Below, one piece after another: positions 14,662 through 17,672 of a stretch of DNA of 64,000 nt (position 1 is its first letter; each line of letters starts with the position of its first letter). Origin of the DNA: an uncultured Aeromonadales bacterium (GTDB lineage Bacteria; Pseudomonadota; Gammaproteobacteria; Enterobacterales; Succinivibrionaceae); contig CACYPI010000001.1 in the NCBI GenBank assembly GCA_902776275.1, positions 1 through 64,000 on the forward strand, given 5' to 3'. A model generated the notes under the pieces. It did not search any database. It saw nothing but the letters and a program-made list of their open reading frames with translations, and was not told the origin of the DNA. The translations under genes were made by a program, and so were the position numbers.

Positions 14662-15138
14662 ATGATCAAGGATTTCCTGAAGCTCTCAGCGGCCTCCGCC
14701 GCAGTCTTCGCGATGGCGCTCTCGCTTGGCGGCTGCCAGATGCTCTCGAGCACGTCGTTCACCCGCGACATCGCCTACACCGACACCGGGGTGCACCGCC
14801 CCGACGAGTTCCCGGTGCTCCACGCCACCGGCTACGCGGTGATCTCAAGGCAGCCCGGACGGACCGAGGACGAGCGCGAGATCATGGCCATGCGCGCCTC
14901 GAAGGTCGAGGCATACCGTGAGCTCACCGAGCAGGTCAACGGCCTGTACCTCAAGGCCTCGACCACGCTTGCCGGCAACACCAGCCAGGCGCGCGACAGC
15001 GTGCGCTCGGAAGTGGAGGGCTACGTCCATGGCGCGCGCGTCATCAGGCAGTACCCGCTTGGAGACACCTATGCCACCGAGCTTGAGCTCGACACCAAGG
15101 TGATCTACGACCTCTACGACATCAGGGGGGCATTATGA
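14662..15138 (+). CDS. flgP: Flagellar outer-membrane lipoprotein FlgP
   Basis: The 158-aa lipoprotein has signal peptide MIKDFLKLSAASAAVFAMAL and lipobox LGGC (Cys25). The body carries the LPP20/FlgP-type segment with ATGYAVISRQPG and MAMRASKVEAYRELTEQVNG, then a short beta region ending YDLYDIRGAL. It is needed with FlgO for the outer-membrane ring of the motor. It begins 13 nt after flgO behind GAGGAGGCAG. Its stop overlaps the flgN start (ATGA), indicating coupled translation. Confidence 0.92.
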   Translation: MIKDFLKLSAASAAVFAMALSLGGCQMLSSTSFTRDIAYTDTGVHRPDEFPVLHATGYAVISRQPGRTEDEREIMAMRASKVEAYRELTEQVNGLYLKASTTLAGNTSQARDSVRSEVEGYVHGARVIRQYPLGDTYATELELDTKVIYDLYDIRGAL

Positions 15139-15599
15139 TGAGCGCCCAGCAGTTCTCCCAGGCCGCAGTGAAGGCCCGTCCGGTCGTGTTGTGCCTAAAG
15201 GATCAGGAAGGCCTCCTGACCGAGCTTGAGGAGCTCCTTCAAAACGAGCATGTCGCGTTAAGGCACCGCGATCTCGACACCTTGAATGCGATCTCGGCGC
15301 GCAAGTCCTCGCTGATGATCACGCTCCAGGGCAACGATCAGCGCATCCGCCTAAACCCCCAGGCTGCGATGCTCCAGACCATCTACAAGGGCCGGGTCGA
15401 TGCGATCAAGGCCGCGCTCTTGCGCTGCAAGAGGCTCAACACCATCAACGGCAGGCTCATCAACCTCAACCTCAACGCGACGATGAGGCTCTCCTCGGTG
15501 CTCATGAGCACCCGCGACAAGAGCACGATGAACCTCACGTACACCGACAAGGGCAGGACCCGCGCCAGCGGGCCGGTGAGGCTCTCCATCGAGGCCTGA
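15135..15599 (+). CDS. flgN: FlgN-like flagellar export chaperone
   Basis: The 154-aa, mostly helical protein has the FlgN pattern LKDQEGLLTELEELLQNEH-ALRHRDLDTLNAIS-RKSSL, followed by a C-terminal segment mentioning NGRLINLN. FlgN escorts the hook-filament junction proteins FlgK and FlgL to the export gate. It overlaps flgP by four bases. Its usual partner flgM is not next to it: an SSB-like/AAA+ pair intervenes, and flgM lies on the other strand 1.7 kb away. A strong hairpin at 15631-15677 ends the operon. Confidence 0.82.
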   Translation: MMSAQQFSQAAVKARPVVLCLKDQEGLLTELEELLQNEHVALRHRDLDTLNAISARKSSLMITLQGNDQRIRLNPQAAMLQTIYKGRVDAIKAALLRCKRLNTINGRLINLNLNATMRLSSVLMSTRDKSTMNLTYTDKGRTRASGPVRLSIEA

Positions 15600-15630: not shown

Positions 15631-15677
15631 GTACAAAGGGCGGAAAACCGGAGACGCGGTTTTCCGCCCTTTTGTAC
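15631..15677 (+). terminator. Strong hairpin after flgN
   Basis: A long near-perfect stem GTACAAAGGGCGGAAAACC/GGTTTTCCGCCCTTTTGTAC (one extra T) has an 8-nt loop. It separates flgOPN from the SSB-like gene and includes its own T-rich descending arm. Confidence 0.8.
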
Positions 15678-15704
15678 GATGCATGCCGTCTTAAGGAGGA
15701 CAGC

Positions 15705-16067
15705 ATGCAATCTCTCAACAAAGCGCTCCTTTGCGGCACGGTCCCTCCTGACTGCCGCATCCGGAGCTTCACAACCAGGCAGGGGAGGCTCCTCTGCTTT
15801 GAACTCATGACCATGACGCCCGGCAGCGGCAGATGCGAGTACCACAGCGTGGTGGCCCGCGACGGCGGAGGATCGGACCTTGCAAGCAGGAGCGAGGCCT
15901 TCGTCTCCCCTGGCAGCATGGTCTTCGTGACCGGCATGATCCGCTACCGCATGCGCGCAGGCTACGGGGCGGGCAGGGTGACCGAGATAGACGCCACGGC
16001 CATCGATCCGGTGTGGCCTGGCGACGCGCCGCAAGAGGGGGATGGCCATGCCGAAAGTCTCCCTTGA
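15705..16067 (+). CDS. SSB-like OB-fold protein, 120 aa
   Basis: The start follows AAGGAGGACAGC, an excellent RBS. The sequence follows the single-stranded-DNA-binding protein pattern: MQSLNKALLCGTVPPDCRI, RLLCFELMTM, CEYHSVVARD, FVSPGSMVFVTGMIRYRM and GRVTEIDATAI. It lacks the acidic tail that recruits partners in housekeeping SSB (the C-terminus is GDGHAESLP). Its 3' end overlaps the start of an AAA+ ATPase gene by 20 nt, so the two are coupled. It is probably an accessory or phage-type SSB. Its place between flgN and flgM is unexplained. The family call is good; the role is unknown. Confidence 0.8.
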   Translation: MQSLNKALLCGTVPPDCRIRSFTTRQGRLLCFELMTMTPGSGRCEYHSVVARDGGGSDLASRSEAFVSPGSMVFVTGMIRYRMRAGYGAGRVTEIDATAIDPVWPGDAPQEGDGHAESLP

Positions 16068-17184
16068 CCGGATCTTCACGTCAAAGCGGCTGTGCGTGAG
16101 GGAGATCGAGGTTCCAGGAGGGCAGGACCGCTCCCGCATCCCGGCCATCGACCGCAGCTACGTGTTCCCGCTGCCCTTTCTGAACCAGGTGCTGCTCTAC
16201 CTGGCCTGCCCGCTCCACGACTGCCTCTACGTCTCAGGCCCCTCCGGGTGCGGCAAGACCACGATGGCGCTGCAGGTGGCCGCGAGGCTCGGGTGGGGCG
16301 TCGAGCAGCTCACGCTTTGCGGCAAGAGCGAGAGCGCCGACCTCATAGGCCACGCCGCGCTCAGGCGCGGCGAGCTCGTATACGAGTACGGCCCGCTGGT
16401 GCGGGCGATGCGCCAGGGCGAGATCCTCATCCTCAACGAGATAGACCTGATGCCGCCTTCGGATCTGGCGGCGCTCAACGACGTGCTCGAGGGCAAGCCC
16501 CTCGTGATCACCCAGAACTGCGGCGAGCTCGTCGTCCCGGCCCCGGGCTTCCGCGTCATCGCCACGGCCAACACCAAGGGCCTTGGCGACGCGATGGGCT
16601 TCTACAGCGGCGCGCGCGTTTTGAACCAGGCCTTCCTCGACCGCTTCAGGTTCGTTGAGATAGGCTACCCGGACGCGCGCACCGAGACGGCGATCGTCTC
16701 GACCGCCTGCCCGGGGCTTGACGAGGAACTGGCTGCAAACCTGGTGCGCCTGGCAGGCGAGCTGCGCCACGCGGGATCAGACCAGAACGGGGCGGCGCTC
16801 TCGGCGCCCTTCTCGACTCGCGTGCTCCTGCGCATCGCCTCGCTCAAGCACGCCTGCCCGCACCTGCCGGTGCACCGGGCCATCGAGACTGGCTATTCGC
16901 TCAGGCTACCCGACACCGAGCGCGAGTATGTCGCAAGGCTTTGCGCCGACATCTTCGGGAACGACGGCCAGGACGGCTTCGGCGCCATGGGCAAGAGCGC
17001 CCCGCGCCATGGCAGGAACGGGGATGGCGGTGATGGCGAGGCCGGGGACGGAACCGAGGCCCGGGATGATGCGGAAGCCCAGGATGGCACGCAGGAGTGC
17101 GCAGGCCAGGATGACGAGGCCCGGCCCCAGGGCGCGGAGGCTGCGCAGCAGGACGGGCAGGGGGAGGATGTGGCGCAAGATTGA
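16048..17184 (+). CDS. CobS/MoxR-like AAA+ ATPase
   Basis: The 378-aa protein starts at ATG 16048 because GAGGGGG lies six bases before it. It carries Walker A GPSGCGKT (64-71), Walker B ILILNEID with Asn130-Glu131 in place of the usual Asp-Glu, and a sensor region FRVIATANTKGLGD, then FYSGARVLNQAFLDRFRF. The last block is typical of CobS-type ATPases. The final 70 residues are low-complexity Gly/Asp/Glu/Gln. CobS proper works with CobT in cobalt chelation, and relatives appear in phages with an SSB. No CobT/VWA partner is seen here. Coupled to the SSB-like gene, it probably remodels a DNA or protein complex; the substrate is unknown. Confidence 0.85.
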   Translation: MPKVSLDRIFTSKRLCVREIEVPGGQDRSRIPAIDRSYVFPLPFLNQVLLYLACPLHDCLYVSGPSGCGKTTMALQVAARLGWGVEQLTLCGKSESADLIGHAALRRGELVYEYGPLVRAMRQGEILILNEIDLMPPSDLAALNDVLEGKPLVITQNCGELVVPAPGFRVIATANTKGLGDAMGFYSGARVLNQAFLDRFRFVEIGYPDARTETAIVSTACPGLDEELAANLVRLAGELRHAGSDQNGAALSAPFSTRVLLRIASLKHACPHLPVHRAIETGYSLRLPDTEREYVARLCADIFGNDGQDGFGAMGKSAPRHGRNGDGGDGEAGDGTEARDDAEAQDGTQECAGQDDEARPQGAEAAQQDGQGEDVAQD

Positions 17185-17189
17185 GACTC

Positions 17190-17226
17190 GGGGCGGCGCT
17201 GCCGCCCCGCCTTGCCTTTTTGTTTT
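17190..17226 (+). terminator. Intrinsic terminator after the AAA+ gene
   Basis: Stem GGGGCGGC/GCCGCCCC with a 3-nt loop (17190-17208) is followed by CCTTGCCTTTTTGTTTTC. A second, opposite-facing imperfect hairpin at 17236-17272 may serve flgM. Confidence 0.75.
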
Positions 17227-17291: not shown

Positions 17292-17672
17292 TCAGCCGAA
17301 GATCGAGTTCAGCTCATCCTCCGAATCGATCATCTTTGAGGCGACCGAATCGAAATTGATCTTGTAGCTACCGTCCTTGATCGCGGCCTTGAGCTTTTCG
17401 ATCTTGCCCTGATCCATGCCGTCGGAGGCCTTGGCCTTCTCGGTGGCCTTGGTGAGGGCCTTGGCCGAATCGGTCAGCACGACCGCATCGGCCCTTGAAG
17501 AGGCTTCCGGGGCGATTGCAGCGCCAGTCGATCTCGCATAGGCGGCTGCGCGGGTGTTTTCCGCAGCCACTCTTGAAGTCGATGCCTGGTTGCTTCCAGC
17601 TTTGGCGCTTTCCGTGTTGCGCGCCTGTGCCAGCGCGTTTCCCGCGCGGTTGCTGAGTGCATCTATTGCCAT
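17292..17672 (-). CDS. flgM: Anti-sigma-28 factor FlgM
   Basis: The 126-aa protein starts MAIDALSNRAGNALAQ, preceded by GGGGGG. The N-terminal two-thirds is Ala/Ser/Thr-rich and disordered. The conserved C-terminal sigma-28-binding region has VVLTDSAKALTK, KIEKLKAAIKDGSYKINFDSVASKMI and an acidic end. FlgM holds FliA until it is secreted through the completed hook. It is longer than the usual 90-100 aa. It is transcribed alone, apart from flgA and flgN, with which it normally clusters. A -10-like TATAAA lies at 17712-17717 on the minus strand; no sigma-28 box was recognised. Confidence 0.9.
   Translation of the reverse strand: MAIDALSNRAGNALAQARNTESAKAGSNQASTSRVAAENTRAAAYARSTGAAIAPEASSRADAVVLTDSAKALTKATEKAKASDGMDQGKIEKLKAAIKDGSYKINFDSVASKMIDSEDELNSIFG

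Follow-up and report, generated by a model that had tools for sequence, protein, structure and literature searches.

A chromosomal MoxR-type AAA+ ATPase gene beside flgN in Succinivibrionaceae is related to an AAA-VWA module of SXT/R391 and IncC elements

What are an SSB-like gene and a gene for an AAA+ ATPase doing between the flagellar genes flgN and flgM? The pair lies in a 64,000-nt stretch of DNA (the window) from an uncultured Aeromonadales bacterium of the family Succinivibrionaceae. A first-pass annotation of the window had proposed a DNA-directed complex of the two proteins, with no CobT partner. The features of the locus are given in Table 1.

Table 1. Features of the flgN-flgM interval and its flanks; positions are those of the window
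Feature	Position	Strand	Basis
flgN, upstream flank, outside the system	15135..15599	+	PF05130, E 3.7e-15
Hairpin with T-rich tail, terminator-like, in the gap between flgN and the SSB-like gene	15635..15672	+	Folding: -29 kcal/mol, z -6.3
Shine-Dalgarno AAGGAGG, 5' of the SSB-like ATG	15693..15699	+	Read in the sequence
Divergent SSB-like OB-fold protein, 120 aa	15705..16067	+	ORF call, profile match, model
AAA+ ATPase, CobS/NorQ (AAA_5, CbbQ) type, 380 aa	16042..17184	+	ORF call, profiles
Hairpin with T-rich tail, terminator-like, 3' of the AAA gene	17189..17209	+	Stem -20.7 kcal/mol, z -3.2
flgM, convergent downstream flank, outside the system	17292..17672	-	FlgM, E 2.7e-15

As the first-pass annotation had it, the two open reading frames overlap, by 26 bp, and a strong ribosome-binding site precedes the first. 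The terminators that it placed on either side fared less evenly: both flanking hairpins fold far more strongly than shuffled sequence, so that the SSB-like and AAA genes are probably a transcription unit of their own, but terminator-like sites, simply counted, are no more numerous in the region than chance would give. The GC contents of the genes (65% and 68%, versus 63.8% for the window) resemble that of the host and, with the conserved synteny described below, point to an old resident and not to a recent transfer, in line with the earlier view. Because outgroup genera have flgA-flgM-flgN in line with no gene between them, the insertion of genes between flgN and flgM broke an older flagellar gene order, again as had been supposed. 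The spot accepts further genes, since an EamA-type transporter gene lies between the AAA gene and flgM in one clade (L040:2891-3775, and the same place in L041, L044, L051, L052 and L053). In G018 an unassigned 502-aa ORF separates flgN from the SSB-like gene (L037:6804).

The AAA protein has a Walker A motif (GPSGCGKT) and, as first described, an Asn-Glu Walker B motif (ILILNEID) and an acidic low-complexity C-terminal tail. It passed the cut-offs for AAA_5 (76.2 bits) and CbbQ_C (31.3 bits; cut-off 20.6), and the solved structures nearest to it are midasin, NorQ and CobS; judged by these matches, it is a CbbQ/NorQ-type MoxR AAA. The original CobS-type label stands in part, CobS being the nearest curated name (TIGR01650, E 1.8e-21), but the score of 76.6 bits is far below that model's cut-off of 558.55. 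Neither did CobN (PF02514) have a match in the genome (G000, 97% complete), and a cobaltochelatase CobNST was rejected on these two grounds. Where NorQ has been described with a Walker B aspartate (PMC9976466), the window AAA has asparagine. The Asn-Glu form was found in 39/39 loci of SXT/IncC and Succinivibrionaceae kind and on the viral contigs L196 and L218; cyanophage-type CobS has Asp-Glu. The change from aspartate to asparagine could lower ATP hydrolysis.

Taken alone, the window SSB-like protein is a weak match to PF00436 (16.9 bits, below the curated cut-off of 26), but some relatives at the same place pass that cut-off, and the best Foldseek matches of its alignment-based AlphaFold model (pLDDT 87) were all SSBs. 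On the evidence of the model, the protein has an OB fold of the bacterial SSB type. The missing acidic C-terminal tip, which had been remarked on for the window protein, extends to the whole group: the tip was present in none of 14 SSBs from such loci versus all 12 housekeeping SSBs. The locus SSBs form a single clade relative to the housekeeping ones (support 100/99), with long branches, and the proteins of G000 and G006 are 41% identical, compared with 71% for the corresponding AAA proteins. The gene represents one old, fast-evolving lineage that is tied to the flgN/flgM site and only loosely to the AAA gene. In profile searches it adjoined the AAA gene in 11 of 19 loci of the genus, the window included, with one further weak match, and also in G020, G026 and G029; it was not found in the Succinivibrio dextrinosolvens clade, G005 or G008. 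The AAA gene stands without it in the S. dextrinosolvens clade and in the outer genera. Conversely, G021 and G033 have the SSB-like gene between flgN and flgM, and G031 has it 3' of flgN, all without an AAA gene. An obligate SSB-AAA pair was therefore rejected, each gene occurring without the other.

The statement that a CobT partner is missing is true within the window and fails for the genome as a whole. A search for a distant VWA partner found an HExxH-VWA protein with a complete MIDAS encoded on contig C14, beside queA, and a second AAA gene on contig C16, its product 83% identical to the window AAA, directly upstream of a VWA gene; the C14 and C16 VWA proteins are 82% identical. Across the genus the chromosomal VWA gene is beside queA and tgt, and the window genome adds yajC and secD downstream. 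HExxH, NxxED and the MIDAS residues DxSxS/T/D (D372, S374, S376, T448, D476) are invariant in the VWA alignment. The structural model of the VWA protein (pLDDT 78, pTM 0.55) supports the VWA domain only, and its best Foldseek match was NorD in the NorQD complex; the C16 protein also gave a weak match to the VWA of CobT. Contig C16 (L003, L004) encodes TraL, TraE, TraK, TrbI/TraB, TraC, TrbC and TraU of an F-type conjugation system, and because these genes adjoin the sole full-length rlmJ found in the genome, the contig has the appearance of an integrated conjugative element. It also encodes a series of small proteins that have no Pfam match. In unrooted trees, alike for AAA and VWA, the C16 copies are sister to the chromosomal copies of the window genome with 100/100 support. 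The close tie of the AAA gene is with the VWA gene, not with the SSB-like gene.

A scan of the collection with short conserved peptides, which is not exhaustive, gave named AAA homologues in Succinivibrio, Succinatimonas, Anaerobiospirillum, Ruminobacter and Succinimonas, which places the host in Succinivibrionaceae. The survey of relatives proposed for the pair gave a divided answer: the AAA gene is present, and lies 3' of flgN, in 18/18 same-genus genomes and in several other genera, but the SSB-like gene is patchy. Downstream of the AAA gene, flgM follows in 14 of the 18; the four exceptions either run into a contig end shortly afterwards or gave no flgM (genes in relatives were called with a simple codon-based caller). 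AAA and VWA occur together in 29 of the 36 Succinivibrionaceae genomes examined, most of them metagenome-assembled and counted without regard to kinship; G019 and G032 were scored as having both despite large insertions in the proteins, and both genes are absent from G021, G022, G027, G030, G031 and G033. The remaining genome, G034, gave no more than a weak match for VWA, and its AAA is of another kind, linked to DUF3150; on one short contig of this genome SSB, AAA and DUF3150 stand in a row (L064:2176-5323), the AAA there having a Walker B that looks degenerate (FVLNSVD). Between-genome distances for AAA and VWA correlate at 0.976, a value that vertical descent alone could give. The AAA gene tracks the VWA gene, not flagella: G029, whose FlhA match has only a T3SS-type score, with no flagellar-type FlhA, keeps the SSB-AAA genes and VWA, G028, with no FlhA at all, keeps AAA and VWA, and seven flagellated genomes are without the chromosomal AAA-VWA pair. 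In the Anaerobiospirillum-type genomes G019 and G032 the AAA protein is 824-1289 aa long, with a long insert before the lid, and the VWA protein 1229-1475 aa, both partners being enlarged in the same genomes (L058:8699-11173, L060:8185-12054, L120:5612-9301, L121:8053).

Outside the family, the closest AAA proteins (41-45% identity) are those of SXT/R391, IncC and similar elements, where the gene is surrounded by bet, exo, DUF3150 and VWA genes, and often by ssb or radC. AAA, DUF3150 and VWA occur together in SXT/R391, IncC and pALVIN02. The module of these elements (SXT/R391 and IncC, with pR997 and pVC1374 as examples, and pALVIN02) has a homologous AAA with Asn-Glu Walker B and a homologous HExxH/MIDAS VWA, and several of them have an SSB gene nearby, as at the window locus. 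The window version differs in being chromosomal, split over two loci and without DUF3150, Bet, Exo or RadC; its SSB is of another, tipless lineage. Searched by tblastn with the window AAA (E up to 1e-5, which includes more distant AAA proteins), 4,537 of 72,556 plasmid records matched, many of them conjugative, and the best and inspected matches were IncC/SXT-type elements.

Hidden DUF3150 or RecT partners were searched for, and none was linked. DUF3150 had no match over the cut-off in G000 and passed it in 4 of 60 genomes, each time near an AAA other than the chromosomal one; no Bet or Exo genes lie beside the chromosomal AAA and VWA loci, and RecT is absent from nearly all of these genomes, G000 having one unlinked copy. 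On the other hand, Succinivibrionaceae-type pairs do travel. The plasmid-like contig L153 has VWA followed by AAA, and L191, from a 65-kb viral contig, has AAA followed by VWA and also has genes for helicase and primase. The difference in order between these two contigs suggests that AAA and VWA were brought together by mobile elements on more than one occasion. L153 was binned as Lachnospiraceae, carries a ParA-like gene beside its Succinivibrio-type pair and is probably a mis-binned plasmid. The pair is not confined to prophages, and prophage cargo was rejected for the window copy, the synteny being conserved among relatives.

The reading that we favour, with some reserve, is that the window AAA acts as the motor in a chaperone pair of MoxR-AAA/VWA type, built like NorQD and CobST and belonging to the SXT/R391-IncC lineage, with the C14 VWA protein as its partner in trans. 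The AAA and VWA lineage of these elements would have become chromosomal in an ancestor of most Succinivibrionaceae, its DUF3150, Bet and Exo neighbours not being carried along; because the trees are unrooted, the direction from mobile element to chromosome is one that we infer. Like NorQ/NorD, the system combines a MoxR AAA, which passes the CbbQ_C cut-off, with a VWA partner of matching fold; unlike it, the VWA protein has an N-terminal HExxH domain, and there is no linked target enzyme. In NorQD, a finger of the VWA domain is inserted into the pore of the AAA, whose activity twists and stretches the NorD linker (PMC13036017). By analogy, an AAA hexamer would grip the VWA domain of the C14 protein, and ATP-driven remodelling would act on that protein's N-terminal HExxH domain or on a client held at the MIDAS site. 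A physical AAA-VWA complex with ATPase and peptidase activity would be expected on this scheme. Jumbo phages have a MoxR/metallopeptidase-vWA pair built in the same way, one of the two proteins joining a metallopeptidase domain to vWA, and a role in virion assembly was proposed for it (PMC7824862); the window copy differs in being chromosomal, among flagellar genes and with no phage genes around it.

Where present, the tipless SSB-like protein may bring the complex to single-stranded DNA, for processing or repair of incoming or broken DNA. The location of the nearest AAA relatives, in the ssb-bet-exo recombination region of SXT/R391 and IncC elements, makes a DNA-directed role, as first proposed, plausible, and given the SSB and bet/exo neighbourhoods DNA as the site of action would be the most parsimonious interpretation; the proposal is weakened in that SSB and AAA are not an obligate pair. 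The SSB-like gene being present patchily, with or without AAA, the link to DNA may be no more than a chance neighbourhood. Similarly, since the chromosomal genomes are without DUF3150 and RecT/Bet, the function of the chromosomal form may have shifted from that of the mobile module. SXT bet and exo promote recombination, and cobS is not named in the text of the paper that reported this (PMC2786100).

It also counts against action on DNA that the targets of NorQ and RavA are respiratory enzymes. The main rival to the chaperone pair of mobile-element lineage, unlikely but to be taken seriously, is that AAA and VWA together serve a host enzyme as a chaperone of its maturation or metal insertion, like NorQD or RavA-ViaA, with the SSB-like gene an unconnected neighbour. 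The architecture and the closest bacterial solved structures, NorQ/NorD, are those expected of such a chaperone, SSB and AAA are each found without the other, and the VWA gene adjoins the housekeeping genes queA, tgt, yajC and secD. Against this, no conserved gene for a client enzyme adjoins AAA or VWA, the most closely related AAA genes have ssb, bet and exo, and not metabolic genes, as their neighbours on conjugative elements, and G029 keeps its SSB and AAA genes 19 nt apart at a site remote from flagellar genes.

A role in defence or counter-defence seems to us improbable. Here the host AAA-VWA pair, with the SSB, would target invading DNA or the proteins that come with it, and mobile copies would neutralise or replace the host version; the fast divergence of the SSB-like protein would fit, as would the fact that an ICE-like element, a plasmid-like contig and a phage all carry copies related to the host version. 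PADLOC models, however, gave only short P-loop matches to the locus, none over most of a model's length, on which ground a known anti-phage defence system was rejected; the AAA-VWA pair has a fixed place in all same-genus genomes, whereas defence islands are patchy, and no toxin or nuclease is linked. A flagellar role in gene regulation or assembly, to which the constant position of the AAA gene 3' of flgN and the persistence of the SSB-like gene there even without AAA might point, is very improbable and was rejected, as the pair is kept without flagella in G028 and G029 and missing in flagellated genera, and a hairpin separates flgN from the two genes.

A bolder version of the favoured AAA-VWA machine, which we regard as a long shot, is an ssDNA-guided chromosomal metallopeptidase: the SSB-like protein would recruit the AAA hexamer and the HExxH-VWA protein, which would strip or cleave proteins bound to incoming or damaged DNA, and mobile elements would carry copies as dependants or because they are threatened by it.

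Our literature search returned no paper naming DUF3150 and nothing on cobS together with SXT ssb, bet and exo, and the AAA-VWA part of the SXT/IncC module appears to have no experimental test in the literature. In this gut or rumen bacterium the locus gives the impression of a mobile-element machine that has been pared down and has settled in the chromosome, and this version, being without the other components, offers a simple system for learning what job the AAA-VWA pair does. The best plasmid matches to the window AAA lie in IncC/SXT-type elements, which spread drug resistance.
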